From: Blepharisma japonicum
Taxonomy: Eukaryota; Ciliophora; Heterotrichea; Heterotrichida; Blepharismidae
Assembly (NCBI GenBank): GCA_949751835.1
Contig: CATKHK010000017.1
Span: 1-64,000 of the forward strand
Reading direction: 5' to 3'
Length of the DNA stretch: 64,000 bases
How positions within the stretch are numbered: the stretch's first letter is position 1; each line of letters starts with the position of its first letter. The translations under genes were made by a program, and so were the position numbers. Positions 1,661 to 63,747 of this stretch are shown one piece after another. The notes below the pieces were generated by a model that was given only the letters and a program-made list of their open reading frames with translations, was not told the DNA's origin and made no database searches.

Positions 1661-1667
1661 TTATAAA

Positions 1668-7226: not shown

Positions 7227-7610
7227 TTTAAATTTGAAAATTATTCAATAAAAGTATGTTTCTCATAACTTTCAAGAAACATCATAATTTTTCTAGACAT
7301 CTCAAGATTTATATTTTTCTTCATAAGTTATATATGCAATGTACATCAGCTGTGGCATTCTTTAGTATTCTCTTTCTCTTTATTTTAGAGAATCATTATG
7401 AATACCGATTATAGCTTTTATTCATTGATACAAATCATTTTTAATTTTTATTATCGCTTCAATAGCTAGTAAAAAAGAAAAAAATAGTTGTAATACTCAG
7501 CATCGATGCTATTTAAATAAGTTTTATTCTTTTCATAAAAGTTTGCTTTCTGTTGTTTTACCTAAAATATGCATCTGCTGAACGAAAATTAATAAAAAAT
7601 TATCAATAAA
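7227..7610. other. Intergenic spacer
   Basis: This is AT-rich sequence between the repeat-protein stop and the ACP start. There is a weak hairpin (ttctct...agagaa, about 7370-7400). I see no coding frame or recognisable RNA. Confidence 0.5.
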
Positions 7611-20100: not shown

Positions 20101-20343
20101 GAAGAAGGGTACTTAACAGACTCTACATTGAAAGATCTCTATCCTAAGCTTCCTGTTGTAAATGTTTTAGCTGTACCAGTTAAAGAAAAAGCTGTAGATG
20201 GAATTTATGACTGTCCTTGTTATGTCACCTCGATGAGAGGACCAACTTATGTGTTTACTGCTGGATTAAAGATGGAAAGTGAAGAAAGCGATCCTAAGAA
20301 ATGGGTCTTGGCTGGTGTCGCTTTACTTATGGCTGAAGGATAA
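8167..20343 (+). CDS. Axonemal outer-arm dynein heavy chain (Kelch/IPT/filamin tail)
   Basis: One uninterrupted 4058-residue frame; an in-frame TAA at 8149-8151 fixes the ATG as the first possible. Residues ~20-355 hold six Kelch repeats (LLIFGG, VYIFGG, ILVFGG). Residues ~360-458 are an IPT/TIG domain and ~460-575 a filamin-type Ig domain. The dynein linker follows. P-loops are GPAGTGKTETTKD (~1336, AAA1), GPPGSGKST (~1617, AAA2), GNAGCGKTQ (~1939, AAA3) and GVGGSGKQS (~2290, AAA4). The stalk coiled coil flanks a microtubule-binding domain at ~2640-2755. An acidic low-complexity insert lies at ~3200-3280 between AAA5 and AAA6, and the C-terminal domain is complete. The Kelch-filamin tail is that of the Chlamydomonas alpha (ODA11) type, so this should be an outer-arm motor for ciliary beating. 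The gene has no intron and no UGA although it encodes about 64 Trp. Confidence 0.96.
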   Translation: MLRDQEQKVFWKPFKQGGMAPQPRSGHSFTQVGSSYVLFGGVSTEQKDRACPNNDVYTLRVLVNDGVWSKEKPRGDIPLPRTHHAACELSGDRLLIFGGLYTSSKRFNDTYILHAPSMAWSQPPNQKSGREPDNSPSQIGAPEPRAFCTASLIDKKVYIFGGYGGVYYQSKAFNDIYMLNIENWEWSKIEATGQVPEPRTGHVACVIGSKLLIFGGCSNNTQFNSCHLFDPNTREWSDIELTYGIPRWNMSAIFVEAIPSNKFFIFGGSIGDFDEGSQRNIGKLSNDVFVLDINTMRFDRDSEKVHEELLSIPEEEKFLPRAREYGSMVFDRSESRILVFGGWNGNWLGDLSTLNVAKIVGPPYAVEECHPCLGPLTGKTKITIKGVGFQDTSQISVRFVCHKQVINVNATYVSETEITCESPSFEAIGPKEAEVRVSFKGGAYTITHTTFKYFMNTRALKSLAYGPGLLKDGAAGVPTVFFIQARNDLGENRKSGADNFIVKITAADLEIPFTIVDRDDGSYEVTFTPPENELNVEVLFEDEKQQITHIRGSPFHPYFKSGVSNKNNDPLGPAMNSFIHGTLSELEEFINLTQDGINIKHKHLGDDVKQLLKVKKHIEDVEERGDEVILKMDELDEALQMFEKNDHPKDSESKKLKRLTENWIGLQKKAKEVKKDIAPMVATEADKCKQQIKNFEEELKVYFNNVKKKDFQKYETGVYNALKSLTEEESKLQNDQNALDELEHLAIYFGFPEAVTGCLKQLEQNQFDVKTMRQLWNHIEKVLALYDKYLGSAWPDIQSSEWEEDNKKLMGNLREMKADKKSSAFQGINATMKTWATFLPLVTQLKEDCMMDRHWSLLKKVLSHEFTINENFTLQRLYDMHLHKYSEQVEEIVDQARNEAKMEKTLQKIKETWDVVTFERQQHKNTDVQLLRVSEENFEVLEEHMVNVQNMFASRYLAYFEELVVYWQRALSNISDNTQLLAEVQRSWSFLENLFIHSAEVKKELPQESEKFIDIDKAVKEIMKQGDTLDIVKNFCMLDGIGKRLEKVQEELAMCERALNEFLDRKREAFPRFYFVSTMDLLDILSNGNNPRRIMRHMSKVFLAIQELILEEGGERPLATDIISCVGTEQVKFYKKQELKGKVESYLSDLIDCMRQTLREIVEKSIVEFGKKPREQWLKEDPSQVSLLVNLMDWVNKTEEAFKTLSHDKEALSKYHKYVIGALTSLIKMVQGDLERPVRVKVMCMITMDTHSRDILDKLVREGVTRDDEFQWQSQLKAYWAADNKSTVLRVCDATIQYGYEYLGNGARLVVTPLTDRIYVTATQALHLMMGCAPAGPAGTGKTETTKDLASASGKACYVFNCSDQMDYQSMGNIFKGLAASGSWGCFDEFNRLVPEVLSVCSVQFRAVTNAIKAGRQRFELEGSEVALDPTCGVFITMNPGYLGRSELPEGLKALFRPITVVVPDLELICENMLMAEGFIEAKNLARKFTVLYALCKDLLSKQLHYDWGLRAIKSVLVVAGGFKRAEPQLAEEALLMRALRDFNLPKIVEEDLSIFHGLLIDLFPGVKVNPKVDLDFETVIQGCLEDARLYPEKECIKRVVQLQELLEIRHCVFIMGPPGSGKSTTWKMLVKANDKCSRKTTAVDISPKSISTNELYGHVLMATREWKDGILSKTMRSLGDVTDTLPKWIILDGDLDANWIESMNSVMDDNKILTLASNERIPLKPHMRMLFEIRDLRFASPATVSRAGILYISDTSGYQWRAFYKAWIARMSYDDTTKENLNKLFERYVQKTLNYLKKSVQFVVPVVDINLVSSLCSMLESLLVGEIKALEYWFVFCTVWAIGGCLSEKDGNDYKKNFSNWWKQKWKTIKFPGKGTIFDYFVNYESSKFEEWGEQVKPYEFDSSTQKMNNVTVPTTETVSNSYFIQAFINIGKSVLLIGNAGCGKTQLSKGVLRSLNPEQFCFVVINFNFYTDALLLQNIMEQPPIEKKTGKQFGPPGKLKLIFFVDDLNMPQLDVYDTQTSIELLRQHADYIHWYDRSKLTIKEIINTQTIAAMNPTAGSFYVNPRYQRHFWHLTIQFPEASSLFTIYNTFALGHFGKGFKASVQEIVSPIIKAAISLHPSMVEKFRKTAINFHYEFSIRHLANIFQGLLVAQPAQFPEPEKIIKLWIHESERIYGDRLVSKAHLDSYRGIMGELIKKTFAKFPSLSRYFQSNPEPLVFSHFAGGLVERVYDQVPSIDSLNKVLDEALKEYNDINAAMDLVLFEDAMKHVCRISRIIMNPAGHALLIGVGGSGKQSLSRLASFICGYSTTQITISQAYSINDLKTDLQSMYNKSGMKNEGVLFLFTEGQITNERFLVYINDLLSSGEVADLYQTEDKDNIVNAIRAAVKGAGIIDNRDNCWNFFIDRVRTNLHMALCFSPVGDSFRNRSRKFPAIVNCTVIDWFHDWPRDALLSVGERFLSSVDLGVDEVRNGVVEFMPFSFNAVNQLSVKYKEQEKRFCYTTPKSFLELIKLFTLMLSKKRNEIITSKERLESGLIKLIETQENVSKLEIDLKEKQVEVEVKKTSADEFAAKVGQEKAVVTQETENANKEAAECERIQTEVEEKKASCEKDLEKALPLLERAQEALATLQKKDFTDMKSFAKPPPGVEDVTAAVMVLTATLDPNVPVDKQGNVTDKSWKAAIKLMANPESFKTFLTSFKTHIDNQDVPDKNFKAVRQYLNLEWFNGETMKGKSLAAKGLCEWAINITAYYDCVREVEPKREALRQASIQLNQANEKLTLTKERVAELEARLKDLVEQYDGAIAEKEAVEREAERCARRLNLANRLVNALASEKDRWSESIENYGKGLEVLVGDVLISSAFISYVGPFTKKYRDILIRDQFLTFFVQKKIPMSPNANPLTLLTDEATIAKWNNQFLPADQVSIENGTILTNTERWPLIIDPQLQGITWLREKEKANNLQIVRLNTKALTRTMETSIDLGYSVIIENIEESIDAVLSPVVARNYIKRGAKRYLKLGDKEICWTPTFKLFLHTKLSNPHYPPEIQAETALINFTVTQDGLEDQLLNLVVKKERPDLARMREELIQQQNSFKIKLKELEEDLLFKLTNAKGDILEDIELIENLETSKRIAGEVKEKMEIAKVTEVKILRASEEYRPAASRGALVFFMMNELHKVHTFYMFSLEAYLLVVMRAIDIVAEKYRAPSATKSKRGKTPEATEVVKPENAMENPTGEAPEGEEKKEESFQAPKEEEEAKEEEKKEGPAEIEAELEEEEEVQQELSPRSLRKRVSELTESITYQSHIYVRRGLFEQHKLLVATMLCFRVLIKDGKIDEQEYAFLINGKPMVDAGHQSENLNWFSEYQWGMIKALDQLGPFQGLASNVDSDYLQWKKWYMEEKAEISDLPRNFKEISYFHKLLLIRALRPDRITSALSIFVREHMGNHYIEQTPFNMFDTYKETSKTVPVFFVLFPGADPTPEVESVAETLGITALNNKFRNISMGQGQEKNAEQAMEQLSQAGGWVMLQNVHLMQSWLKILENMLEKFSKKAHENFRCFISSEPPALPDMKIIPETILQNCIKVANEAPQALKDNLRRAYSHFSQKDLESSRKPNEFKAMLFALCMFHSLVLGRRKFGSQGWSKHYSFNDGDLTICSDILNNYLSKYDEVPYADLRYLYGEIMYGGHITDNWDRRTCNTYLQVLIRPELMSGMSLAPQFKSPDPSRFDYEAYSKYIEEKLPIESPQMFGMHPNAEINYLTATGDKLFGTILDVSGVSGAGEAVKKKEDVVIDLINAFLAKLPQEFKMIEITAKTKERPPDVVVCLQECERMNILLGTIRRSLIELQMGLSGALNITDRMESLSNSLSVNRVPKGWEDVAYFSKKVLAIWFLDLLERVKQLEEWSKELILPKSLWIAGLFNPMSFLTSVMQTTARSKNLPLDNMTLQTTVTNFLEPDEIHNYPENGAYVHGFFLEGAAWELGRSPTEEGYLTDSTLKDLYPKLPVVNVLAVPVKEKAVDGIYDCPCYVTSMRGPTYVFTAGLKMESEESDPKKWVLAGVALLMAEG

Positions 20344-26384: not shown

Positions 26385-26924
26385 TTATAAGCATGACTTA
26401 AGATGTATGGAATATTGATATTTGTTGTATAAAACTTTCATACAACGCTCACATGTTACCTTGCGCATATCGTCATGGACTTGGGTTGAGTGAAACTTCA
26501 ATGCATATTTACTGACAAATTTTCTATTGCATTTGAGGCACTTGAAATTTCTTCTTTTTGTTCTATGGATTTTTCCTTGGTGTTGTTTGTATCCTTTATA
26601 TGTGTCGAAAGTTCTGGTGCAGGGTTTGCAAAAATACTGAGATGAAGATATATCTAGATTGTTCTCTAAAGGGACAATATCTACTGAAGTTGATATATTT
26701 GTTGTGAAAGAATCATTATCACTTGAGTCTTGGTTTTGATATATTTGTTGGGGCTGAATTTCAATAGAAAGATTTATGTGAAGTATTTTTTCTGATCCAC
26801 TTCGAAAATTCATACCACAATGCTCACATATATATGACGGTGCTCTACTAATGGGTGAATCATCAGATATATTGATGATAATTGGGGAGGGAAGACTTTT
26901 TTTTGTTCCTAAGTTCAGCAACAT
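26385..26924 (-). CDS. C2H2 zinc-finger protein, paralogue 1
   Basis: The 179-residue protein has an incomplete first finger (CEHCGMNF, no proper His pair). Around residues 100-175 there are three further fingers: CKPCTRTF..HQGKIH, CLKCNRKF..HSTQVH and CERCMKVLYNKYQ..HLKSC, the last ending in His/Cys. The fingers are spaced closely with basic linkers (HRTKRRNFK), so nucleic-acid binding is likely. It shares its order of elements and many residues (TYKGYKQHQGKIH, NKYQYSIHLK) with the genes at 29043 and 31745, so the three are an old local family. A leading KKSLPSPIIINI stretch matches KKLPSPIVLEL of the others. The target is unknown. Confidence 0.82.
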   Translation of the reverse strand: MLLNLGTKKSLPSPIIINISDDSPISRAPSYICEHCGMNFRSGSEKILHINLSIEIQPQQIYQNQDSSDNDSFTTNISTSVDIVPLENNLDISSSQYFCKPCTRTFDTYKGYKQHQGKIHRTKRRNFKCLKCNRKFVSKYALKFHSTQVHDDMRKVTCERCMKVLYNKYQYSIHLKSCL

Positions 26925-27460: not shown

Positions 27461-27961
27461 TTATTCTTTATCAAATTCTATATAGTTTGGCAATTCTTCA
27501 TGAACTGATTCGATTTGTTGCTTTAAGAAAACTTTCGGCCTCACACACTCTCTCTTTTTCAGTATGAAATCCAATGCTTCTCTATAATTCCAACCTTTTG
27601 CAGCCATGTAATATGCAATTACAACAGACACACTTCGATTCCTTCCGAATTTACAATGGACAAGCACCTTTTCTCCTTTTGATACAACTTTGTGGATAAA
27701 CCTCAAAGATTCCTGCATTGCAGGCAAAATTGAATAATTTTTGCCTCTAGGGACTATAGCTGTACAATATGTAAAAGCCGCTCTAAATTCCGTTGGAGTC
27801 GGGACGGCAAAAAGTTCAACTATATGAGTGATTCCATGATGTTTGAGGTTTTGATAATCCTCTGCACTTGTATAATCCCCAATACTGATATGCTCGTCGA
27901 TCTCATGCATACTTGGGAATCCAGTGACTGACTTCAAAGGATCAGAATGATGTAATTGCAT
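27461..27961 (-). CDS. Dual-specificity protein phosphatase
   Basis: This 166-residue single-domain phosphatase carries the cysteine-phosphatase signature VLVHCKFGRNRSVSVVIAYY (HCxxGxxRS); the Cys is the nucleophile and the Arg binds phosphate. The helix after the loop and the motif REALDFILKKR are typical of DSPs. The usual general-acid Asp, about 30 residues before the Cys, is not evident: the region reads VPRGKNYSILPAMQ with no Asp between roughly -20 and -40. It could still act on substrates with good leaving groups or use another acid. The substrate cannot be predicted. The 5' end of this gene is copied as a broken fragment near 30650-30780. Confidence 0.88.
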   Translation of the reverse strand: MQLHHSDPLKSVTGFPSMHEIDEHISIGDYTSAEDYQNLKHHGITHIVELFAVPTPTEFRAAFTYCTAIVPRGKNYSILPAMQESLRFIHKVVSKGEKVLVHCKFGRNRSVSVVIAYYMAAKGWNYREALDFILKKRECVRPKVFLKQQIESVHEELPNYIEFDKE

Positions 27962-29042
27962 ATTTACATTGGATTTGATTTTGAATTATTTAAGCGAGAC
28001 AGACATCTTGCATGATTAAATTAATGGATTAGAGCACTAGAAGAATTAATCGAATTTATACCAGAAAAGATAATTTTTTTTGGTACTTGGAATCCTTAGC
28101 TATTCTAGATTATAAATGGTGAAGATAATAGCTGAATAAAGAATTAGAATTTTGGCAATGTTAGAATGCTATAATGAAGGCCTTGAATGGATTTTTAAAA
28201 TTCAAAAATTAATTTATTAATTTGAACAGAAATTTGATAGTTATATAAAAAATTTAAATTTCAAATTTTCTAATTTAAATAATCATATTAAAAATGCAAA
28301 TAAAAGGCAATTGAGCTCTGCAATGGAATAATATAAAATGGATACATCAAAATTAACAGAGGACGATAAAAGTTTAAGATAATCTAATATAAATTATATT
28401 TTTCTTAAATCTACTTTCTATAATAATTTTGTAATATATATTCTGTATGATGCCATAATAGAGTCTAGTAGAAAGAACGATAAAAAATTTAAAGTAAAAA
28501 TTGGAATTTAATATCTAAAAATGGAACAGGTGATAACATAAGCGATGAAAAAAAAGAATCTGCCTTGAGCGTCATCAAAATTACTTGACTAAATTCTGTA
28601 AGAATTCTGAAATCCAATCCCCAGCCCAAGAAATATTCAAATCACATGCAAAATAAAAATCATGGGGTTATTCAAAATATCCCTAAAAATTCGAATCACA
28701 TGAATTTCAAAGAAATCCAAAATAGATAAAGGTTTAATTCCAGAAGACCTACTTATTATCCTCTAGATCAAAGATATAATTTTTTTTTAATCAAACTAAA
28801 TTTCAAGAAATGATGAGGAAGCAAAAAATAAAATTACGAACTAACTGAACCATATATTTGGTTTAAAGCTAACACAAATAATTTTGGTATTTATTGTTAT
28901 TTTTTATAATCCTTTTTTAGTTAACCCTGTTAACTCAATGTTAAGAAAATGGCCACTCGTAATTGATGACGGAGAAACCAAAAAATAATTTTAACTAATA
29001 AAGAACATAAATTTAAAAATAAATATATAAAAATAAATTATC
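27962..29042. other. Spacer between phosphatase and zinc-finger paralogue 2 (duplicated)
   Basis: AT-rich and without a gene. It is alignable to 30780-31744 in the second duplication unit, with many small differences, as expected for unconstrained DNA. Confidence 0.6.
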
Positions 29043-29606
29043 TTAGTGATCTTTTTCGAGATGAGCTTTTAAGTGATATTTATTATAAAGGAACTTGCCA
29101 CATTTCTCACACGCAACTTGGGTCGATTTTTCATGTACTTGCATGAGATGCATTTTAAGCGCATACTTATTTTTAAATCGTTTTAAGCATGCTTCACATT
29201 TTGATGCTCGTCTTCCAACGCGGTGAATTTTTCCTTGGTGTTGCTTAAACCCTTTATAAGTTGAAAACCACTTGTTACAGGTTGAGCAGAAGTTCGCCTT
29301 GCTTTCTTTTATAGTTTCTGTGGAAATTTGATCAGAAATTTCCACTTGGAGGTTGCTAACATTAGAAAATGTTTCTTCGGTTTGCCAAAATGCTGAGTCT
29401 GGCAATGAGTCAGCATTTTCATCATGAACGCCTTCCAAAGAGTCTAATGAAAACTTTTCATGAAGCATCATATCAACGAATTTTAAGAAATTCATACCGC
29501 AAAGCTTGCATGAATAAGTTGGATTTACCTGAAGGCTGCTTGAATGAACTAATTCCAACACTATTGGTGATGGTAATTTTTTTTGAGTAACTCTCAACGA
29601 TTCCAT
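29043..29606 (-). CDS. C2H2 zinc-finger protein, paralogue 2
   Basis: The 187-residue protein has a half-finger near residue 33 (CKLCGMNF), an acidic/Ser linker (residues 60-105) and three C2H2 fingers: CSTCNKWF..HQGKIH, CEACLKRF..HLMQVH and CEKCGKFL..HLEKDH. By my count it is about 86% identical to paralogue 3 (31745-32308): 27 substitutions in 187 and no gaps. The fingers are more conserved than the N-terminus, which suggests both remain functional. It is probably a nucleic-acid-binding protein. It sits in duplication unit A. Confidence 0.85.
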   Translation of the reverse strand: MESLRVTQKKLPSPIVLELVHSSSLQVNPTYSCKLCGMNFLKFVDMMLHEKFSLDSLEGVHDENADSLPDSAFWQTEETFSNVSNLQVEISDQISTETIKESKANFCSTCNKWFSTYKGFKQHQGKIHRVGRRASKCEACLKRFKNKYALKMHLMQVHEKSTQVACEKCGKFLYNKYHLKAHLEKDH

Positions 29607-30516
29607 TTTCTTTTATTCTTAATGGTGAAGTATTATTTTTTGAGAAAAGTATTCTTAAAGCATTTTTGAATTATTTATTGTTTAAAAATAAAAATTTTTG
29701 TAATATTGGAATTATAATGAGCTCACTGTATATTTAGAAAAAAGTTTTGTTTTTGAAATTGGGCTGATTTTAAAATATTTATTATAGCAATTTTGCTATC
29801 TATGTACATTAGAAAAAATCAAATAATATATATTTAAATTCAAACACCGTAATCTATTAAGGCTCAAAAGAAATGGAGTCCATATAAAATTTATAATAGA
29901 ATTTAAATTAATTAAAGTGAACAGAAATTTCATGAAATTATTTGATTTTTTTATTAAGCATTTTTATAGTAGAAAAATTAAAATAATTATTATAATAATT
30001 CCTTAATACAAAATCCCATTATGAGTTTTTATGATAGTCAATATGCAATTTTTATAAGCAGGTTAGTCTTCAAATTAATTATCGTTAATTATTTTAATAC
30101 ATTGTTTATTAAATTTTATATGCTTTTGCATTTGCTTCATTTTGAAAGAGGAAAAATTCCCTTCTAAAATTGTATAATGATGTATGAAGCGATTATCAAG
30201 AAGATCATTATAGATATTTAAAATATAAATATACATAATTTTTAAAGATGATATTCAAGAGATTATTAAATTAATCAATATTTAAGTCATAACAATAAAT
30301 AAATGATTAATTTTTTTATAGAAACTCCTTTACCTTTAATTAAATTAATTTCTCATTTTAACCAACTCCATTTCTCAAGAGTATTACTGTTATAAAATTA
30401 AGCTTATAATTATATACATTAATATAAACAAAAATAAATTTGCATATCATAGTATTACTGGATTTTTAACTAAAAGCTTAAATATTCTAATAAATTAATA
30501 TTATTTTAGAGTTTAC
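29607..30516. other. AT-rich spacer, matches 32309-33140
   Basis: No gene is visible. The stretch aligns with the spacer between zinc-finger paralogue 3 and the PARP gene and so belongs to the duplicated segment. Confidence 0.6.
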
Positions 30517-31744: not shown

Positions 31745-32308
31745 TTAGTGATCTTTTTCCAGATGAGCTTTTAAGTGATATTTATTATAGAGGAGCTTAT
31801 CACATGTCTCGCACACAACTTGGGTTGATTTTTCATGTACTTGCATGGAATGCATTTTAAGTGCATACTTATTTTTAAATCGTTTTAAGCATGCTTCACA
31901 TTTTGATGCTCGTCTTCCGACGCGGTGAATTTTTCCTTGGTGTTGTTTAAACCCTTTATAAGTTGAAAACCACTTGTTGCATGCTGTACAGAAATTTGCT
32001 TTGCATTCTTTTATGGTTTCTGTGGAAATTTGATCAGAAATTTCCACTTGGAGGTTGCTAACATTAGATAAAGTTTCTTCAGTTTGCCAAAATGCTGAGT
32101 CTGGCAATGAGTCAGCATTTTCATCACGAATGCTTTCCAAAGAGACTAACGAAAGCTTTTCGTGAAGTATCATATCAGCGAATTTTATGAAATTCATACC
32201 GCAAAGCTGGCATGAATAAGTTGGATTTATCTGAAAGATTTTTGAATGAACTAATTCCAGCACTACTGGTGATGGCAATTTTTTTTGAATAACACTCGAA
32301 GTTTCCAT
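31745..32308 (-). CDS. C2H2 zinc-finger protein, paralogue 3
   Basis: This 187-residue protein is the duplication-unit-B twin of the gene at 29043. It has the same half-finger (CQLCGMNF), linker and three C2H2 fingers (CTACNKWF..HQGKIH, CEACLKRF..HSMQVH, CETCDKLL..HLEKDH). All zinc ligands of the last three fingers are preserved. Most differences from paralogue 2 lie in residues 1-60, while residues 64-110 and 120-150 are nearly unchanged, which points to selection on the fingers and linker. The role is unknown, with nucleic-acid binding most likely. Confidence 0.85.
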   Translation of the reverse strand: METSSVIQKKLPSPVVLELVHSKIFQINPTYSCQLCGMNFIKFADMILHEKLSLVSLESIRDENADSLPDSAFWQTEETLSNVSNLQVEISDQISTETIKECKANFCTACNKWFSTYKGFKQHQGKIHRVGRRASKCEACLKRFKNKYALKMHSMQVHEKSTQVVCETCDKLLYNKYHLKAHLEKDH

Positions 32309-33144
32309 TTTCTTAAATTTTTACTGACAAAGCTCTATTTTTAGAAAAATAAAAATATTTGTAATATTGAAACTATGAAGTTACTGGATAATTAGAAAAA
32401 GCATTTGTTTTTTAAATTAGGCTGATTTTAATATATATTTATTATAGCAGCTTTGCTATTTTTATACCTTCGAAAATTCAAATAATATATGTTTAAGTTC
32501 AAACAGTGTAATCTATTTAAAATAGCCAAAAATTGGTAATTTTATAGGATCAAAACCAATAGAGTCATATAAAATTTATAGCACAATTTAATTTAATTAA
32601 AGCAAACAGAAATTGCATTAATTTATTTGTTTTTTCAGACATTTTTATAACAGAAAAATAAAACTTTATGTAATTTCAAGTTCTCCATGATGGGCTCTAT
32701 TATAGAGGATTTCAATTTTTATATTTAAGTTAGTTTTCGAATTTATTATAACTAATATTTTAATTATATATTTATTGAAGAAAAATAAATTACCATATAT
32801 TTACTTTTGGCTAATTTTAAAAAGGAAAAATTCCTTTAAAAAATTGTAATTTATAACTATTGAAATATCACATTAGCAAAGATTAAATGCATGAAGTTAT
32901 TAATCAAGATAAGTAGCCCTTAAATATATATGAATCAATCCAATAAATAAATAATTTATAGTTTTTTTCATAAGAGCATCCTTTACTCTTAATTTAGTTT
33001 TTCTCCAAACAATATTACTATCATAAAAATGAAGTTTTAAATTATATATATTAAATAGCCAAAAAATAAATTTTGAGTATCATGGAGGCTGGAATTCATT
33101 AATAAGAATTAAATATTCTAATAAATTATTTATTATTTTAGAGT
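32309..33144. other. AT-rich spacer upstream side of PARP 3' end
   Basis: No gene is visible. The sequence is the unit-B copy of the spacer at 29607-30516. Confidence 0.6.
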
Positions 33145-50431: not shown

Positions 50432-51769
50432 TTACTCAAGTTCGTCAGCTATATATCTTGCAGCCCCTTCCAAATTTATGATGATTCTCTTCTCATTTTC
50501 AAACTTTGTCCCTACATAATCGCTTATTAAAGCTAATTCAGCAGAAATAAACTGAGTTTGGCTTTTTATAACTATGTACATCAAAACAGGCAACTCGTCA
50601 TCCATTGAGTTCAGCTCATCTTTCCCTTTAGAATAATCAAGTACACACGTTTTCATTGCTCCAACCATAGTTAGTAGACAGTTTAGCTTTTCAACAGGCA
50701 CACAAGTTTGTTCTAGCTTTTTTAAAGCTTCAATTGCTTCAGAATAAGGCTGAGGAATCCCAATCAGCCTATATTTTTCATTAATTTGTAACTTTTCTAA
50801 AATTTCTTGATTTTCCAATTCCAAAATTTTTGTTCTTTTTTCCAAAAATTTTTGCTCAAGTGCATTCGTTTTTGCTTTATAAATTTCAAGCAAATTATTA
50901 TACAGCTTCCCATAAACATATTTCTCTACTGCAGGCCGACAAAAATGCATCATTGATTCAGTATTTGATTTTCCAAAGTTATAATGGCTAAATAACGCTT
51001 CGACTGAGTCTTCTACTAAAACTTTAATTGATTCAATTGGCTGTGGTAGCAATAAAACTGACTCTTCAGGATTTCTATATTGGCTAGCAAAGGAAGTTAA
51101 AAAATCAGCTATTGTTTTCCCTAGCGTATAAGATTCTGATGACAAAATCTTATGAAATTGGTAATAAGAGGAGCTTTCGTGCTTACAAGTCATAATGGTT
51201 TCTTCGTCAACTTCTCTTGATACATTCATATATAATTCTCTATCTTCTTGAGGCTGCTCTAAAGCGGCTCCAATTTTATTTTTGAAATCTTCGACTACTG
51301 GACAAATTGTTTGTGGGAAACCGTAAATACCTTTAAGCAAGATGGTTCTGGTGCAATTTCGCTCGTTTATAGAAATTGAGAGTCGAACTGCAGACATAAT
51401 CGCTTTTTGGCGTTCTTCAGCTGGGAGACAGCAGAGTAAGATATCTTTTAGGCCATATCCTTCCTTGTGAACTGCAGTTGCAATATTCGAGGTTTTTTCA
51501 ATTATCTGGAAACGCTTTCTTGATGCAACTTTGGTAAAAACATCAAGAATTGTGCTTGAGCTCACTGAAAACGGCATATCAATTTTGAATGAAGGCATAT
51601 ATGGATCTGAAGGATCCGAGCCTAATTCAGTATTGAGGATAAAGGAGTTCCTATTTGTGTGTTCTTGAGAAATATCAACTGATTTAATTATTTTTGTTTC
51701 TTCTGATGGTAAGTTGAGATGGGAATTTGGGATACTTTCAATTTCGTTGTTTAGCTGATTAAATTTCAT
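50432..51769 (-). CDS. VPS9-domain protein (Rab5-family exchange factor)
   Basis: This 445-residue frame starts at ATG 51769, is uninterrupted and contains no TGA. The C-terminal ~140 residues match a VPS9 domain: PVEKLNCLLTMVGAMKTCVL, then MDDELPVLMYIVIKSQTQF with the conserved acidic Asp and the catalytic helix, ending RIIINLEGAARYI. VPS9 domains load GTP onto Rab5/Rab21 GTPases on early endosomes. The N-terminal ~250 residues match no domain I recognise and may set location. Gene order places it downstream of a convergent coiled-coil gene. Confidence 0.9.
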   Translation of the reverse strand: MKFNQLNNEIESIPNSHLNLPSEETKIIKSVDISQEHTNRNSFILNTELGSDPSDPYMPSFKIDMPFSVSSSTILDVFTKVASRKRFQIIEKTSNIATAVHKEGYGLKDILLCCLPAEERQKAIMSAVRLSISINERNCTRTILLKGIYGFPQTICPVVEDFKNKIGAALEQPQEDRELYMNVSREVDEETIMTCKHESSSYYQFHKILSSESYTLGKTIADFLTSFASQYRNPEESVLLLPQPIESIKVLVEDSVEALFSHYNFGKSNTESMMHFCRPAVEKYVYGKLYNNLLEIYKAKTNALEQKFLEKRTKILELENQEILEKLQINEKYRLIGIPQPYSEAIEALKKLEQTCVPVEKLNCLLTMVGAMKTCVLDYSKGKDELNSMDDELPVLMYIVIKSQTQFISAELALISDYVGTKFENEKRIIINLEGAARYIADELE

Positions 51770-52648: not shown

Positions 52649-55600
52649 ATGGTTGAACTACTAAATAGAAAAGCCCTAGCTAAAGTGTCACCAAATTCAG
52701 AAGTCCCTGTCCTCGAGCCACAAGAAGAAGGTGATACCATGGACGGAGTCCCTCTTATGGACCCGCAAAACCAATGAGCGGGGCAATTAAGCCAAAAAGC
52801 AATAGCAACAGGTCTGAATAACTACCGTCAGCAATGAATCAGACGTACCTTTAGATTAATGTGCCTATCTACCTGACTTTTTATTATAGGCCTGGCTTTC
52901 TATCTTTATGTATATCTTACATATTTAAACAAAACAGTCCTTCTATCAGGCGATTCTCTAACTGTTTATGTAAGGGACTGCAAAGTTACATTAGAATACT
53001 CCAGCAGCTTTGCTGATAACACTATTCAAGCACATATAAAAGCATATAGCTCGAACGACACAGTTACCCACACATCTGATACTATCCAAGTCTTAAACCC
53101 ATATACTGATGTCGAAGCTTGCCAAGTTCATGTCAAAGGAAACATCGCATCAAGCGACATGCTTTTTGTGTGTCAACACAACTGCTGAATTGAGCAAAAA
53201 GGAGATACTATTTCTATGCAAAGTCTTCAAGTCGCCTCAGTTGCTGATGATTCTGGGTTTATTGAACAAGGAAGGCTTAAACTAAAATCCGTTTCGGCAG
53301 ACAAAGTTTTGATTGAGTTTGTAGGAACTGTCACTATTAGAGAGCTAGAAACTATTGAAGGAGGCGCTTTCAATGTAACTTATGGAGACTTGTGAGTTCA
53401 AACTAAAAATGAAGCCGCAGTTCTTTTTGGGACTTATGAGTCTGGAGCTTATTGTTTTGCAGGCCCAGCGGTAGGGACTTCAGTTGCTGCTGTTTGTGAT
53501 TGGTCTACTTTATATTTGACAAATACCACTTCTTTTAGTATAGAAAATTGTGCTGGAAAATACAATCTTTGTAAAAACTCAGGGTGTTACCCAAGCATAG
53601 AATACTCAGCAATTGTTACTGATGGAGGCGTTTATTTTAATCTAGTAGGAGAAAACGGGTATTTAATAGATACCCCACAAAATGTAAACGGTGGACAAAC
53701 GCTTCAAGTGAATATAAGAAGCCAAATTACTATAGACGAAATTGTCAATAGCACATTTGGGCTTGATGTTAATAAAGATAAAATTATCATTATGGACCAG
53801 CCTGGGATTTTTGAAGACCATGGCAGATGAATGTTTACTACAAATATTGCATATGCCCAGCTAACTGCATGGTGACTATCATTGGTATCCTTTAATTTAT
53901 TAGTACCTGAATCTAAAATCTTCAATATAAGGATGGTGCCAAATATATGTCCAATGCAAGACAAGACTTGGTATGACACCCAAGTAGGCTTAACATGGGA
54001 CGCTATTAACACACAATACGGAAACCAACAAAATGCGGAGACCATATGGATGGAAAAAAGTGACTCCAAAGATACATGGTATAAATATAAAAAAGGCACT
54101 GATTTGCAGTATAAAAAATCAACAGTTAAAATTTTGGATAATCCTTTTCTGTTTTCTGCACTAATGATATCTTTGTTTTTAGGTTTTTCTGCAGGATTGG
54201 CAGCTATGGTAGGAATTTATTTTTGCTTGAGGTCATTTTCAGTTAAATTTTGGAAAAAATTGGAACATCAGCGGAGATATAATCGATGCAAAAAAACAGT
54301 TGAAGAAATGAAAAATGAAGATATGACAGTAATGGAAGAAAATGATAATGAAAATGATGACGAAAATGATGAAAATGATGATAATGAAGAAGAACAAGAA
54401 GAAGGTGAAGAAGAGTCAGACGAGCCTGCCCCAGGTGAAGGCCTATTACCACCTCCTTATGCAGTTCCTGATTTAGTGATTGCTCAAAGTAGAAATTCAA
54501 GCTTGAACTCTTTAGAAAGTTTCCTTAAAAATGCGGTAGATATAGTCCTTCCTAACGCAGAAGTCCCTATGCAGGTTATTCGTTTAACAGAGCTTAAAGA
54601 AAAATACGAAGCTTTTTGCTTTCTGAACGGGTATATGGAAATGAGTATTAGAGAACATAAAAGCCTTTTCCTTTCAAAAGATATCGAATTTTTGACTATT
54701 AATGATACCACAACAGAAGTGTTCAGAAAAATCAGATTTAAGAACAAAAAAGAAATTGTCGACCAAGGAAGGGTTACACAGATGCCTGACGAAAATTCGT
54801 TAGCTTTCTTTGTAAGATGCAAAACTGTGGTCACACCTTTTAATAAAGATATAATTTATATGAAAGATTTCCAATTGGAATACGAAAAGTTTTGTAGGGC
54901 TGAAAAAGTGGCTGCACCTGTTCCTATAACGAAAAGAGGTATGGAGTCTATGGGAAGTATTTTTGAAAGGCTTCAAATAACGGCTTTAAAACTCAATGGG
55001 AGATTTAGGCTAAACTGGGCAAAAATAGACGATTTGTTAGAAAATCCAATGGACGTCCCCCTAACTCCTGGATGGTGCTGCTCTGATTTCTGTTCAGTTA
55101 CTCTACATGTATTTTTCGCTGCATGGATAATCCTACCTTTGGCTTTGCCTCCTTTGCTGATTACTGCAAAACATGCAATGTTTTCTGCAAGAGATATTGA
55201 CTATATTCTTACATATACAGATTTAAATTACGCTTGGTGGGAAATCATACACAAACTTCGTTACATGCCAGCTTATTTTGTGGTTCTTTTAATTTTGGCT
55301 TGCCTTCTTGAGTTTCTAGCTCTTTTCGAGCTGGTAACTTATTACCTTTATCAAATTTTCCCGTTTAAATCTGAAAATGTACTCAGAAATATGCATGGGG
55401 TCAGATGGATTTCTCAAACTCTTTATTACGTCATATTTTTATTTTTAATTGGTTGGATTTGCTTTTTATTTATAGTTGCAGTCTGCTGATTTATCCTAGG
55501 TGCTGTCTTAAATCCTGATATTTATTTATCTTATTGTTCAGGAGCTGCAACTTTAGTATCATTTTGTATGGGTCAGATAGCAAGTCTTAATTTCTTAAGG

Positions 55601-58600
55601 ACTGAAATATTTAAAAGAGTAAAAGAAGGAGTTTGGGATAGGCTAAGAGGAATGCTGATGCTAACATTAGGAGCTGTCACTGTTGGACTTGCTGCAAGCA
55701 GTGCAAGCTCTCGTGTAATTTCCAGAGAAAACAAAACCTTACAGGTTTTCGCTAAAACTTCATTAGGAGATGTAGCAGAAAATTTAGAAATTGATCACAA
55801 GTTAGCGGCAGCACTGGCACATGGTGATGACGAAGCAATACCAATTTTAGCACAAAAATTCGGAGCTAATCCTTTGATTATTGCAGCAATTCTTGCAGTG
55901 GTTTTTAAAGATAATGAAAAACTGATGAGGGTGGTAGAAGATCTAGCACAGGTGCCTGCTATTAATATTTCTCCTGATCTTGCAAAAATGATTGTAAATA
56001 TCTCACTCAAGCAAAAAGATGCAAATATCAGAAGCACAGTAAAAATGGCAACAATCCAGTTTGTGAAAATGAAAAAAGAAATGGGTGCTGACCCTACTAT
56101 GTACTCGATTGACCCAAGAGCTATCGAAGCTCTAGTCGCAATGTCCCGAGGCTTTGTGGATAGATTCATCACCACAATTTCGAATTCTGATACCCACATT
56201 TCTATTATCAAAATATTATCACTAATCAAAGGGCTTATTGAGCAAAAAATGTTTGAAGCAACAGACACCTTAACCAATTTATTGATAGAATATTGTGATG
56301 TCCCTGAAGATGTCGCCAAAAGTATAGCAAGCTTATGTGATGAAACTTATAGTGCTAAATTCCAAAATGACTTCAGTGGGTGGAACTCTATGATAGACAC
56401 CCTATGCGATAAGCTTGGAATGCAAGATGGTTTATTGATGCAGCTTATAGTTCATACTACTAGAAATAATATGGGATCAATGCTAAGGATCATGAACAAT
56501 TTGACTGAAGTTCTAAATGGAAAGCATAAATGAAATTTAGATAGCGGGATTCTATCATCATTAATTCTATTAGTCAATGGATCACTCATGGATTTAGATA
56601 AATTTGCTGCAAAATATGAGCTGCCTAATGATTTAGTTAATAGTTTGTCACCATTATTTTCTGAAAAACGATTTACAGAAGTTCAGACTATAGTTCCAGA
56701 AGAAATTCCACAAGATCGAAGAGCGTCAGTAGGCGAAGAAGAAATAATAGCTCGCCAAAGTGAATCAAATAGACCGATTCCTGATAATATTCCACCTTTT
56801 ATTAAAGCTCTTGCAGAAAATCTGCAGCCTACAGGAGAAAGCATGGAATGAATGGCAAAATTTTTCAAGTTAACTGGAGATCAATTGCTAGGGCTTTATG
56901 CTATACTTAGAGGGGCTAATAAAAGCCAAAAAAGTGCGCTTAAAGCTATAACTCAAGAAGTTTTAAGAAGGATGAGAGTTGATGAAGAATTCACTAATTA
57001 TATGACAGCTGCTACTGTTTGGGCTACATCTTATGATGCAGATTCAATTAGAGAAGCCCAAGCAACCTTAAAAATGGGCTTCCGAGACCTCACATATGTA
57101 GCGAAACGTATGCTAGACCCTAAAGAGCTCCCTATAGGAATTTTCACAAAAATAGGTATCAGAAAAGATGATCCTGTTGTCAAGAGAAGAAGAGCACTAA
57201 GCTGGAAAAGCGATCCTGACCTCTGCAAAGACTGGTGCAGAGCTACAGCTATGAAAATTGCAGAAGCTAAAGGGATAAAACGCAAGCGAAAAAATTCCAC
57301 AAGAAGCCAACTAATGCTAGCATTCCAATACCCTCAAATTTATATGAAACAAATTTTTGAGAAAAAAATCCAATGTGATGATGAAAGCCAACGAAAATAT
57401 AAAACTCTTATAACTGCCTCTTTTTTAAAACAAATGCAAGGAAATAGGCGAAAGGACCAAATTATCAATTTAGCAAGACTTTTTGAAATGGATAGCGAAA
57501 CAATGGAAATTTGGGTCGAAATGGTCTTAGAGGATAATTTGGAAATAAAAATTGACTACATGAAAAAATGGATTGCAAAAATTGGGCTGGATTGTGTTGA
57601 TAATGCAGAAAAATTTTTATTAGATTATGCGAATCAAAATCAGCTTTATTTTGAATCAACACTAGGCTTTGGAAGGCTTTCCCAAGAGCTTGGATTTCCT
57701 TTTAACTTTACATGCTCTCTTTCGAATGGCGTTATCGATACTTTGGAAAACTACCCAGAATATTTTAACCAGTTTATTAAAGATTTTTGCGGAGAAATGG
57801 GAATAGAAAATAAAAATATTCAGGACTCAATTGTGTGCTATGTAAATCAAGATTCTTCAGGACTTGAGCCGTTCGGTAAAGCTTTAGGATTTAAACCAAA
57901 CTCAATATCGACGCTTGTATCTTTGTTTGGAAGTATGCAAAATGGCTTATTGACGCCTATGATAATTGTAGAGAAATTTGGTGAGCTTCTTGAGTCTATA
58001 GGAGTTAACGATACAATTTATAATGGCGGAAAAGCTTTATTAGCTATATCTCTAAAATTAAGGCAGCAGTTTAAAATCAGGAATTTCAGCGGTCTTACTA
58101 ATAAAGCCTCGGCATCAGAAATAATTGAGGAATTAGCAGGAATTCCTAAGGTAGTTTTAGATGGCATGATGTCAGCTGTAGACACTGAAGACCGTCTTCA
58201 AGCTGACTCATTAATAGAAATGTCAAGATCTCACGTCCCAGGATTTCGTCTTGAAGAAAGTCACTGTAGAGGGATCATTTCAATGGCATATGGACAAGTC
58301 GCAAATGTCGAAGACATTTGCCAAGCTATTAATTTCGATGCAGACATCGCAGAAGTGCTAGTCACTATATCGGAAAATAACAATTTAAGCCATACTTTAT
58401 TAAAAGCATCCTCACATTTCCAGAAATTTATGCTAAAACTTGGTTTGGATCACGAGAAAACGGCTGCTCTTATTGCATTGACATGTGAAGATTTAGAGCA
58501 TTGCGACGAAATTGCAGAAGATTTAGATGAAGGAAGATCAATTAAGGCTGAGTTTTTAAGATGCCTTATAGCGATTTATATGTTTTTCAACCTCGAAAAT

Positions 58601-61600
58601 GAATGGGATGAAGACTATAAGCCAATGAGCAAAATTAAAAAATTAAAAAAATTCCTCCCATGACTTTGTAAAGCTATTGGTGTTACGAATAGTCAAGGAG
58701 CTTTATTGATGCTAAGACTGGCTCAAGGAGATGCAAGCGCTATAGTTGGAATTCAAAGCAAAATGGGCTGGAATGGCACTGATCTTAGCTATTATGCAAG
58801 TTTGGCTTGCTTGGTAAGCCCTCTTCCATTTAAATTCGAATATACAAGCAAAGGTAAATATGACTGAATGTCATTTAAACATCTAGAAACGATCACAGGC
58901 AACCTCTCAGACCTATTTAAACTCAATGAAAAAATGCTTACAATCTTAATCCAAGCTGCAAGGTCTGAGTCTTCAGCTTTAAATTGGATCAGGAAAAAGC
59001 TTAACTTCCCCACAGTTCGCGATGCTCAACGATTTATTAGTTCTTTAATATATTCTGAAGAGCCGAGTGACAATGATGAATATTCTTCAGACGAAGAAAA
59101 CATCAGCATGGCTGATTCTAGCTCGCAAGGCTCCTCATCTCATTATTCCTCCAATACTAGCAACCTACCAGATGATGTTTCAGTTGACAGCCTCAAAGGA
59201 AATCTTGTAGAACGAGTTGACCCTCAAGTAAGAATTCTCCAGCTTGGTCAGTTAGTGAATGCATTAAATTCCCGACAAAACCCTAAAGAAACAAGCTTCA
59301 CTCAAGAGACTGTAAAACTATTACTCAGCCTGTCTTCAGGAAGCCTAGAAAATATCCATTTACTTGAAGAAATTTTAAACTCTGTATATGAAAATGAGCC
59401 ACCAATTAGTTTTATATCAGCAAGAGAAATTATGGCAGTTTCAACTGGAAATCTTACAGAAATTGCAGGCTTGACTTCAAGATACGAAGACTTATATATG
59501 CCTTCTAAAGATGCAGAAGAAGAGGATAAGAAAGGCTCTGCTGATAGTATGATGAATATGTTTAATTTGCTGCCAAGCTCAGTTGAACTGCAATTTTTAG
59601 TTAGATTGGCAAGAGGAGATCATACTTGTTGGGACATGAAGACTGATACAGATGCATATATAGGGCAAAGAGTGCATAGTGATCCACGTTTACTTCAGTC
59701 CTTTACTGCGCTGATTTCTGAAAATCATTATGGGGTTATTGAAACTATTGACACTTTGGCAGAATTCACTGAGCTTGATAGAGATATGCTTATATCGTTG
59801 GTGCTTATATCGCAAAATGCTATAGAACTGCTGCCAGCTGGCATTACTCCGCTTACACAAAGACTTGAAGTAGACTCATTGGTAGCTGGGGCATTTATTC
59901 CGAGTTGCTACAAGACAACAGATATGTTAGAGCAAGCTTTCCAAAGTTGCTGTGAAAAAATGTCAACACCACCTGTAAATGCAGCTTTGGTTGCAGCTGT
60001 TTATAAAGGAGCAAAAGGGGATATTGGTGCATGGGTTCAGCTAGGAATATTTTACATGAACTTGTACAAAAATGCAGACCGAGAAAATCTTGACCAAGTT
60101 TTGATACTTAGAGCTTTTGAAAGTATTTTGGCTGATAAATACCAAACTGAGATCAAAGATTCTATGTTTATATCCAATATTATTGAAGAGCCAGAAATTT
60201 TGCTTTCGCCAGGCAAATTTGGTCCACCAATTTTAGAAGATGAAGAGGGGATAGAGCTTGTACCTCTAGCTTCTCCAACACCTGAATCTATAAACAGATC
60301 TAAAGACGCTTTAGTGAAATGCATTGGATTTAATAGATTTCGCAGATCCTCTATTGTAAAAAGAATGCTAGAAAATGAATTCAGATCTTCCAGTGGACAT
60401 ATAATGGTTGATTTAGTTGTTGGGATTTCAAATAATGACTTAGAAATGGCTCCAATTGTCATGAGAATGTTGCATGAAGACCCATCTCGATATGAACTGA
60501 TAAAAGCTTTCCTTTCTCTCTATAATGATAGTACTGAAGTATTGAACGCCACAGAATTAATAGAAGAATATATAAGTAAAAACCAAACCCAGCTTCCTCC
60601 AGGATCCTTACAAACCATTATAAGTGCAAGAAAAGGGTTTTCTGTAGTCGCTGGGAAAGGTATAGAAAAAGCTGCCAAAAATCCTGGATTGCTCTGGAAC
60701 GATAACTACACAACAGGAATTTCTAAAGTAATTGTGTCCATGGTGCAAGCCAAACTTAACGACAACTGGGAAAGATATGCTGACATTATAACAGAATTTG
60801 CTAAAAAAATCACTGGAGTTGAAAATATCACTCATGAAGACAAAACCTTCCAAATGATTATCCAAATGCTTATGGGAAAAATCAAAGCTTTTATTAAGCT
60901 TGGAGCTCAAGAATTTGGCCTTAAAAATAAAGACTTAAAGGAGCTATTTATTTTGTGTGTTCCCAAAAATCCATGAAGCCAAGCTGGTTTCCCATGCACA
61001 ACTGCAAATTTGAAGAGATTAATACCAAAAATGCCAGAAGAGGTAATAGAATGCTGGCTGAAACTGGTAGGCAGAGAAGTAGAAGACTTGGACTATGGAA
61101 GAAAAGGAATGGGAGATGTGCTATATCCATTTATTAAATTTATTTTGGAGTGCTTACCAAAAGATGCAAGATTTAAAAAGAAAAAAGGGGCTTCAGATGA
61201 GGAGCTGGCTGAAATTAAGATATTTGATGCGTTCTTTTTAGCATGCACAGACCCTTATAAATATACAAAACCTATTGCAGACGCAATGCCAGATCTTGGA
61301 AGAGCTTTAATGAATGAGATAAAAGATGATATTATTACACTTTTGACAGGTTTAGTATCTCTATTTCAGTCAGATCGTAATCAAATTATACGCCACCGTG
61401 CTATTACTGATCTTTCTAATGCATTCATGATAGACTACAATATTGTTAAAGGCTTTGTATCTTTAGCAAAATCAGATTGGGAAGGTCTTTCAGATATGGC
61501 AGGCCGATTCTGTGAATTTGACCCACAAAAAGTAGCGCAGCTTGTTATGCTTGTAAAACGCTTAAAACTAATCGGAGATGAAGAATACAATGAAAAAGAC

Positions 61601-62146
61601 CAAAATGAGTATGCAAGGCTAAAAGAAAAATTAGATGAAGGTGGAGATATAGATAATATCTTCCATATGCTTGACAAAGATGGGTCAGGAGAACTCGATT
61701 TTCAAGAATTCTCACAAGTTATGAAATTTTTTGACCTAGAAATGACGAATCAAAGACTGCTTCAAATATTTTCGAAATTTGACGCTGATGGAAGTGGAAA
61801 TATGAGCTTGCAAGAGTTTGAAGCTGCTTTTGACTATCTAAAAAGCGAAGTTTCAAGAGGTGCAATGGAAGGGCTAGGCCTTGCGAAGAAAAAATTAGCC
61901 ATGATCTTTTTAGGGTCACTATTGATATTGATTCTGGTGTTTGCTTTTCTATTTCTTGGGATTATTGGGTTTATCACTGTAAGCAGATTTGGGTCAGCTG
62001 TAAACTCTATGCTTCCGATGAGCTCTGGAGTTGTAATTTCTAAGCTAAGAGGCTCAGGGGGGAATCTGCAGACTAAAATTGATGAAATTGGTGGGAAAAT
62101 CACAAATTCGTTGAATATAATGACAGTTGAAGAAAATAATGGATAA
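52649..62146 (+). CDS. Giant polytopic membrane protein with helical repeats and two EF-hands (unknown family)
   Basis: The frame from ATG 52649 to TAA 62144-62146 is open for 3165 residues; 13 in-frame TGA codons are read as Trp and no intron is needed. Order: cytosolic N-tail; membrane helix (~74-94); Cys-containing, beta-rich lumenal or extracellular region (~95-495); helix (~499-531); a very acidic stretch (~559-600); a globular part; three or four helices (~813-980); then about 2000 residues of helical repeats (~1040-2980) with recurrent L..L..LAxGD-like turns. Two canonical EF-hand loops follow (residues 3009-3020 DKDGSGELDFQE and 3045-3056 DADGSGNMSLQE). A last helix lies at ~3083-3112. 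I do not recognise the family. Calcium-regulated membrane attachment or mechanics is inferred only from this layout. Confidence 0.88.
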
Positions 62147-62214: not shown

Positions 62215-63747
62215 ATGGAACATAGTAAAATTGATAGTGATATTGAAGCTCTTGTGCGAAAATACAACTTAGACTCAGACCCATTTACTTCATTCAGCTT
62301 TAAAACAAGTCCCCAAAAAGAAATACCTATCCCAGAACAAGATGAAAGCTTTAAACTTTCAAGAGGCAGCGCACTCTCATCATCTCAATATGAATCTCCA
62401 CAGTTATCATTCAGTAGACCTCCTATTATATCTACCTCCCCAAAAGACTCAGCAAGCTCCCAAGCAATAGCATCTGCTATGAAAGCGCTTCAAGACAAAT
62501 TAAAAATAACTGAGAATGCTAAAGAACAACTTCAATCTGATATAGATGTGTTAGAAAAAAGAAGTTATGAAGAAAAACAAAGACTTAACACAGAACTGAG
62601 CAAAGCTATTTATAGTGTAAAAGATTTAGAAAAAAAATGTTATGAGTTTGATCAAACTTTGCAAAATAAAAATAATTTAATTGCAAAGCTAGAAGACCAA
62701 ATTGGATTTTTAAATACTCAATGTGGGTTTACAGAAGGAGAAAATAAACGATTTCAAGAACAATATGCAATTGATAAAGAAAATTGGTCTTTGCAAGTAG
62801 AACATTTCAAAAAAATGCTTGCGACTAAGAATGACTCTGAAGAGTCCTCTTTAGAAGCATTATCAGCAGAGCAAGCCAAAAATAGGAATTTAGAAGAAAA
62901 AATTCTCGAAAAAGATGAAGTTATTGAAGCTTTAAATGAAGAAATTTATCAGCTTAGACAAAACTTCGACTCAGAAAGAGATATGTATCAAAAAAATCTT
63001 GGAGTTTTAGAAGAAGAATTAAGAAGTACCAAGCTTGATTTAAACGACAAAACAATCAGATTAGACGATTTAAGCAAAAGCTATCAGGATACATTAACTA
63101 AACAAAACACAGAAATTGAAGAATTAAAGCTTCATATCGCCGAGCTGAATAAAATTAATTTTTTATCAGAGGAGGCAAGAACTGCACTTAAACGTGAGCA
63201 TATGGAGACTCAGCATTTTGTAAAAGACATTGTTTCGGTAAATGAGCAGCTTGTAGATTCGCTTAAACGAGAGTCACAAGCTAAACTCTTGCTTGAAAAT
63301 GCTACTAGAGAAAGATCATTGTCATCTAAATCTATTAAAAAACACAAGAAAAAGTTTTCGGGGAGCTTGAAAAAATCAATAGTAAATAAGACCCAAAAAT
63401 CAAGCATACACAAACGAGAATATTCAAGGGAATTAAGCACAGAAAGAAGCTCTAGAGGTTTTACACCGAAAAGGCATGTGAAATCTCCTTCATATTTAAG
63501 AAATAATAAAAATGAAGAAAAAGAATTAGAATATGAAATTCAAGAACTTGATAAAGAAATTTCAAAATACAATGGGATGTATAAGCAGCTATTGCTAATA
63601 TCAAATGATGGGTCCAGAGATTTAGGAGCCTTAAAAGCAGAATTAGATGATATTTCAGCCAAAATGGAAGCAAAAAGCAGACTTTTATATTCACTGAAGA
63701 GAAAACACCAAGCGATTTTGAGAGAAAAAATGCTTACTTTTAACTAA
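62215..63747 (+). CDS. Coiled-coil protein, CEP57-like (tentative)
   Basis: This 510-residue intronless protein begins 68 bp after the giant gene stops. After a Ser/Pro-rich head it has SSQAIASAMKALQDKLKITE, reminiscent of the start of the CEP57 family coiled coil. Long coiled coils follow (~80-360). A Lys/Arg/Ser-rich segment (~365-430, KSIKKHKKKFSGSLKKS) could bind microtubules. A second coiled coil (ELEYEIQELDKEISKYNG..) ends the protein. CEP57 and related proteins work at centrosomes, basal bodies and microtubules. The match is pattern-level; other centrosomal coiled-coil families remain possible. Confidence 0.55.
   Translation: MEHSKIDSDIEALVRKYNLDSDPFTSFSFKTSPQKEIPIPEQDESFKLSRGSALSSSQYESPQLSFSRPPIISTSPKDSASSQAIASAMKALQDKLKITENAKEQLQSDIDVLEKRSYEEKQRLNTELSKAIYSVKDLEKKCYEFDQTLQNKNNLIAKLEDQIGFLNTQCGFTEGENKRFQEQYAIDKENWSLQVEHFKKMLATKNDSEESSLEALSAEQAKNRNLEEKILEKDEVIEALNEEIYQLRQNFDSERDMYQKNLGVLEEELRSTKLDLNDKTIRLDDLSKSYQDTLTKQNTEIEELKLHIAELNKINFLSEEARTALKREHMETQHFVKDIVSVNEQLVDSLKRESQAKLLLENATRERSLSSKSIKKHKKKFSGSLKKSIVNKTQKSSIHKREYSRELSTERSSRGFTPKRHVKSPSYLRNNKNEEKELEYEIQELDKEISKYNGMYKQLLLISNDGSRDLGALKAELDDISAKMEAKSRLLYSLKRKHQAILREKMLTFN

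Follow-up and report, generated by a model that had tools for sequence, protein, structure and literature searches.

The window analysed here is the whole stretch of 64,000 nucleotides at positions 1-64000 of contig C17 in the assembled genome of Blepharisma japonicum (45.2 Mb in 224 contigs). At 52649-62146 on the forward strand lies an open reading frame, referred to below as gene A, that encodes 3165 amino acids with UGA read as tryptophan, ends in TAA and has no evident intron. It had been predicted that this region holds a single giant frame whose reading needs 13 UGA codons, and both points are borne out: the 3165 codons run without interruption, and translation with UGA as tryptophan places 13 UGA codons beside 30 UGG codons. 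The companion expectation, that standard pipelines would break the gene up, applies to the wrong code only, under which the frame falls into 14 pieces, eight of them at least 100 amino acids long. For B. stoltei, UGA is reported to encode tryptophan, introns to be mostly 15-16 bp, and the genome (41 Mb) to carry the same telomere repeat, CCCTAACA, as found here (PMC9942806). Three consecutive units of CCCTAACA match our genome at 77 places in forward and 91 in reverse orientation, and among the matches listed those on C5 and C17 sit at contig ends; the reversed pattern gave 0 matches in a whole-genome search. In-frame 15-base intron candidates of the form GTA...AG occur six times in gene A and once in its paralogue, B (described below). 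None falls at a five-residue gap of the A/B alignment, a single candidate, at residue 2246, overlaps a gap of one residue, and at residues 2194 and 2903 the alignment, followed by eye, is continuous without a gap; from this alignment we judged such candidates for hidden introns to be coding. UGA makes up 13 of the 43 tryptophan codons of gene A versus 0 of 64 in the dynein heavy chain gene of the same window (Fisher p 2e-6); UGA usage varies strongly from gene to gene, perhaps with expression.

The dynein heavy chain (8167-20340, forward strand; 4058 aa) carries kelch repeats and one filamin repeat towards its N-terminus. Upstream of gene A and transcribed divergently from it is a gene for a VPS9-domain protein (50435-51769, reverse strand), a family of Rab exchange factors, and downstream lies a gene for a 510-aa protein (62215-63744, forward strand) that weakly matches ATG16 and Cep57, neither match reaching the cut-off. 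Three related reverse-strand ORFs of 179-187 aa (26385-26924, 29043-29612 and 31745-32320) have a C2H2 zinc-finger-like motif recognised by eye; two are 86% identical and the third is about 41% identical to both. Between them sits a 166-aa ORF (27461-27985, reverse strand) with the motif HCKFGRNRS, which resembles a dual-specificity phosphatase signature. Finally, a frame of 1855 codons is open on the reverse strand at 1673-7240 if UGA is read as tryptophan, with UGA at 23 of its 33 tryptophan codons, and lies opposite a 1867-codon ORF of Lys/Glu-rich appearance (1623-7226, forward strand); the reverse-strand frame is probably a shadow of this low-complexity gene.

Gene A has a complete paralogue, B, at C5:585127-594642 on the reverse strand, which encodes 3171 amino acids and contains 12 UGA codons. 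The two proteins are collinear over their full length and identical at 1449 of 3138 aligned residues, with identity between 0.28 and 0.69 in every 100-residue block. Overall pS is 0.71, near enough to saturation that the corresponding dS of about 2.2 is rough, and pN is 0.365; when the alignment is divided into ten 300-codon blocks and a shorter eleventh, pN is lower than pS in every block. All but one of the 13 UGA codons of gene A are aligned to B, where ten of the 12 stand opposite tryptophan (eight UGG, two UGA), one opposite Phe and one opposite Leu; conversely, eight of the 12 UGA codons of B stand opposite tryptophan in gene A. We regard gene A as one gene because of this collinear full-length relative, the lower pN in all blocks and the pairing of UGA with tryptophan. 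The full-length paralogue is the strongest of these pieces of evidence and argues strongly for a single gene, against the objection that several genes were read as one; as judged from the same comparison, a chance open frame is ruled out and the whole design is maintained by selection in two paralogues. All statements on conservation in this report compare two sequences, A and B. Identity differs by part, from 37% in the first loop through 46% in the arm, 58% in the C-terminal tail and 65% in the EF-hand part to 75% in the last membrane helix. The best-kept 24-residue stretch of the whole protein, residues 1393-1416 (22/24 identical), lies in the arm. The EF-hands and the last membrane helix are, by alignment, also among the best-kept segments of gene A (3025-3048, 21/24; 2998-3021 and 3087-3110, 20/24 each), and 946-969 likewise has 20/24 identical.

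Membrane segments were delimited by hydropathy, with a threshold of 1.4, and by their aligned flanks; all features of gene A given from here on lie on the forward strand. Six segments exceed this value: TM1 (residues 70-92, 52856-52924), TM2 (497-527, 54137-54229), three helices within residues 819-952, namely TM3 (819-840, 55103-55168), TM4 (873-899, 55265-55345) and TM5 (924-952, 55418-55504), and TM7 (3085-3112, 61901-61984), which is the most hydrophobic of all. TM5 is followed by an Asn-Pro-Asp turn (955-957) that A and B share unchanged and that links it to a weak TM6 (958-981, 55520-55591), with hydropathy below 1.4 in A and 1.7 in B. The original prediction of several membrane helices and a final one accordingly finds support in the hydropathy, except that TM6 stays below threshold in A. 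The 15 residues preceding TM1 have a net charge of +4 in both A and B, and the N-terminal tail (1-69, 52649-52855) is predicted to be cytosolic, with TM1 as a putative signal anchor. TM2 is basic on both flanks (outer +3/+4, inner +4/+3 in A/B), the flank after TM6 carries +2/+3, and the residues on either side of TM3 and TM4 are close to neutral. On this modest evidence we predict a topology of seven membrane helices with a cytosolic N terminus, which would place the C-terminal tail (3113-3165, 61985-62143) outside or in a lumen. Further hydrophobic stretches occur in the arm at 999-1019 (1.6), 1066-1084 (1.71; 2.2 in B), 1756-1774 (1.45) and 2381-2399 (1.62), and in our judgement these are buried helices. 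The stretch at 1066-1084 is hydrophobic enough for a membrane, and if it alone were inserted the arm would lie on the opposite side; likewise, any odd number of extra arm segments in the membrane would move the EF-hands to the other side. A chain with an N-terminal signal anchor normally inserts all its helices into one membrane, which makes a covalent bridge by the arm from one membrane to another the less likely form, and both anchors of the arm are probably in the same membrane.

Between TM1 and TM2 lies a large loop (loop 1, residues 93-494, 52925-54130), predicted to be outside or lumenal. Cysteines are kept in the paralogue at nine of ten positions in loop 1 compared with 19 of 42 in the rest of the protein, and N-glycosylation sequons at three of five in the loop; since five of 25 sequons are kept outside the loop too, the sequon argument is modest. 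AlphaFold2 models were made for residues 1-1050 and 2180-3165 from two-row alignments; both have a mean pLDDT of 35, so that their secondary structure alone is usable, with care. The first model has strands at residues 95-271 (52931-53461), along with two short ones at 468-480, and the block pLDDT of this beta part is 46-71 up to residue 240 (48-71 in the blocks from 91 to 230) and lower beyond. The beta-rich outer part of the original prediction thus reappears in the modelled strands, in a model of low confidence and with the side of the membrane assigned by the predicted topology. In a Foldseek comparison of model 1-1050 with the PDB, 16 of the 17 top matches come from seven entries titled adhesin, cell adhesion protein, pectinase or lipid-binding protein, all 16 with E below 0.004; the other match is to one chain of a secretion complex from Legionella. 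The adhesin-type matches have a best E of 2.7e-5, probabilities of 0.72-1.00 and target TM-scores of 0.20-0.41, with the query range unstated, and the match at E 2.7e-5 and probability 1.00 has a target TM-score of 0.36 from this low-confidence model. Presumably the seven entries (for example, 3ljy, 3pet and 4qrk) are DUF4097/DUF2807-type putative adhesins that share one beta-helix fold. Searched against the genome with E allowed up to 10, the DUF2807 and DUF4097 sequence profiles found no match, and a profile made from loop 1 found no relevant one among PDB sequences. An adhesin-like fold of the outer domain is a lead from modelling.

Directly after TM2 comes a basic patch, and then an acidic linker rich in Asn, Asp and Glu (residues 547-611, 54287-54481) that is present in both A and B. 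Weak sub-cut-off Pfam matches such as PGA2 (E 0.005) fall on TM2 and this linker, and so do residues 499-593, to which a locus elsewhere in the genome (L008, C28:280313-280624) is weakly similar (35% identity, E 0.009). The cytosolic domain that follows (residues 618-815, 54500-55093) is probably a diverged tandem duplication, to judge by a comparison of its halves, cut by eye: they align over 45 columns with a score of 22.8 (E 0.0017, probability 15.5%), and the highest control scores were 16.2 among 100 column shuffles and 14.1 among 20 windows of the arm.

The greater part of the protein is an arm of about 2000 residues (approximately 986-2985, 55604-61603), predicted to be cytosolic and helical, with a Ser/Asp/Glu-rich hinge at residues 2129-2188 (59033-59212) in both A and B. 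No Pfam domain was found above cut-off in the arm, nor any Pfam repeat of the HEAT, ARM or TPR type. In the second AlphaFold2 model (mean pLDDT 35), residues 2180-3008 are mostly helical and no strand is listed before the first EF-hand loop; 44 helices precede that loop and cover 559 of model positions 1-829, with a median two-helix spacing of 36 residues. This modelled part, as short helices in tandem, resembles an alpha-solenoid. Sequence repeats in the arm are left unproven: of 19 hand-picked units scored with each left out in turn, one exceeded all 40 shuffles and none exceeded the best control protein, and a profile comparison of the arm with itself, which scored 31.8 (E 0.023) and exceeded all 24 block shuffles (maximum 26.3), hardly beat a reversed-arm control at 28.8. 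Of the helical-repeat arm described in the original prediction, the helices find support in the low-confidence model at 2180-3008; the repeats are supported by the block shuffles and unsupported by the leave-one-out and reversed-arm controls.

Close to TM7 are two EF-hand loops of 12 residues, loop 1 at residues 3009-3020 (61673-61708) and loop 2 at 3045-3056 (61781-61816). Their claimed perfection is confirmed, as both follow the canonical pattern in A and in B, and Pfam EF-hand_1 matches two stretches of gene A at 42.4 bits against a cut-off of 25.4, with B passing the cut-off too. Residues 3000-3058 match calmodulin (E 2.2e-7), and Foldseek matched model 2180-3165 to calmodulin lobes with probabilities up to 1.00, though with E near 1. 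The pair is predicted from its sequence to bind Ca2+, and 28 residues separate its second loop from TM7. This genome is rich in EF-hands: of 1348 candidates 150 were scored and every one matched, giving at least 150 matches, which is why EF-hands by themselves say little, and a search of the genome with the EF-hand stretch, with E allowed up to 10, returned 179 matches. Other giant proteins with EF-hand motifs (2060-3488 aa; contigs C60, C2, C3 and C52) have no hydrophobic segment above 1.6; among the matches listed, these (12 stretches) align by BLAST with A and B only around the EF-hands, at approximately 2920-3097, and were rejected as relatives. Two of these giants have 3488 aa with 14 EF-hand motifs by pattern (L016-L017, C60:156306-166823) and 3447 aa with ten (L020-L021, C2:92042-102385), both without strongly hydrophobic segments.

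Within the genome, searches with the N-terminal part, the membrane block, the arm, and TM7 with the tail each returned gene A itself and paralogue B only, bar the hit on C28 described above. No ion transport (Ion_trans), RIH, transporter or enzyme domain scored above the Pfam cut-off in either paralogue or in the scanned parts, and a profile search of PDB sequences gave no relevant match to gene A; resemblance to any established family of channels or transporters, which would have spoken against the original prediction, was therefore sought in Pfam and PDB sequences and not found. Four parts of gene A found nothing above cut-off in NCBIfam. Scans of viral and prokaryote contig collections, with two to six short peptide patterns each and one pair reused, returned no homologue, which means little given that these are viruses and prokaryotes and the patterns few and short. 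Model 2180-3165 had no Foldseek match in the PDB at E ≤ 0.001, and one match in a viral library at that threshold, with a probability of 0.25, was taken as noise. The description of the protein as undescribed accordingly holds within Pfam (beyond the EF-hand), NCBIfam, PDB sequences and the viral and prokaryote collections, and the titles and abstract openings found in literature searches gave no description of such a protein; unstudied giant proteins abound in ciliates. We also considered the Paramecium caudatum mating substance with four EF-hands as a counterpart and rejected it, as it is reported to be a kinase-like protein of 489 residues with another layout (PMC10974281).

Reading function from layout, we favour, with a probability of roughly 0.35, the view that the product of gene A is a looped, Ca2+-regulated membrane scaffold or tether. 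A glycosylated, disulphide-rich beta domain would lie outside the cell or within a store (the ER or a cortical alveolus), on its lumenal side, and would anchor or position the protein. The hinged, alpha-helical arm would be cytosolic, with both of its ends in one membrane; with its ends so placed, the arm could act as a bent handle able to hold the cytoskeleton or a second membrane. A rise in Ca2+ near the membrane would then lead the EF-hand lobe to open a calmodulin-like groove, and the opened lobe may grip the arm, a partner or the membrane, thereby changing the posture of the arm. The kept layout, the EF-hands, TM7, the loop 1 cysteines, the flank charges and the short tandem helices of the modelled part of the arm, together with the lack of a recognised enzyme or channel domain, speak for such a scaffold at the level of sequence; the uncertainty of the topology, the mean pLDDT of 35, the unproven arm repeats and the position of the best-kept stretch in the arm, not in the EF-hands, weaken it. 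The Asn-Pro-Asp turn and that arm stretch (1393-1416) suggest a role beyond passive anchoring. In a more specific form, which we consider decidedly unlikely as stated, the protein would represent a class undescribed in our searches: an adhesin-type beta domain outside or in a store lumen and a six-helix membrane block would be joined to a 2000-residue helical handle whose far end is fastened to the same membrane next to the EF-hand lobe, with Ca2+ opening or closing the handle and thereby the cell's grip on the cortex or a store. Calmodulin-type EF-hand pairs are matched by gene A, but here as a single pair built into a membrane protein. Junctophilin and E-Syt are tethers between the ER and the plasma membrane, and the arm could likewise be a cytosolic spacer beside a membrane; gene A differs from them in lacking any such domain and in having membrane helices at both ends of the arm.

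Among the alternatives, the doubtful one that we would take most seriously has TM1-TM6 conduct as a channel or transporter, with the arm and EF-hands as a Ca2+-dependent gate, as in the big intracellular Ca2+-release channels. RyR and InsP3R have a huge helical cytosolic part, and RyR an EF-hand pair close to its membrane helices, features to which the predicted helical part and membrane-proximal EF-hands of gene A are similar; the arm is preceded by six predicted helices, the first two separated by a large loop, and the membrane turn within residues 946-969 (20/24 identical), itself identical in A and B, keeps this alternative alive. Against it, no Pfam match to an ion channel, RIH or transporter domain and no relevant PDB sequence match was found, the membrane block comes first, the reverse of the RyR/InsP3R order, about 290 residues separate TM2 from TM3, and there is an extra C-terminal helix. 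It is unlikely, in our estimate, that the protein is a surface receptor for adhesion or recognition (as when cells pair or touch a substrate), with the beta domain binding outside and the arm and EF-hands signalling inside. The adhesin-like fold lead keeps that idea alive, with its Foldseek matches (best E 2.7e-5, probability 1.00), and loop 1 is less identical (37%) than the arm (46%) or the EF-hand part (65%), as is often so in surface proteins; yet the model is of low confidence, the target TM-scores are 0.20-0.41 with the query range unstated, the DUF2807 and DUF4097 profiles gave no match, and loop 1 could equally be lumenal. The DUF4097/DUF2807 adhesins, moreover, are bacterial and do not form part of a giant membrane protein. 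That the protein is a Ca2+-driven element of contraction, or that its arm covalently joins two membranes, seems highly unlikely: the EF-hands do adjoin the last anchor, and the arm would be large enough to span tens of nanometres, but no tie to myonemes was found, EF-hand matches number at least 150 in the genome, and co-translational insertion favours one membrane. An artefact, whether from reading across several genes or through a decayed one, is brought to mind by the gene's length and its 13 UGA codons, and is extremely improbable in the face of a collinear full-length paralogue, pN below pS in 11 of 11 blocks and UGA opposite tryptophan in ten of 12 cases.

Giant heterotrich ciliates show fast Ca2+ responses, the membrane parts of which are, to our knowledge, poorly known. 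A two-gene family with a fixed layout offers a concrete candidate, and the A/B pair points to features that can be tested: the canonical EF-hand loops, the identical membrane turn and the hinge.
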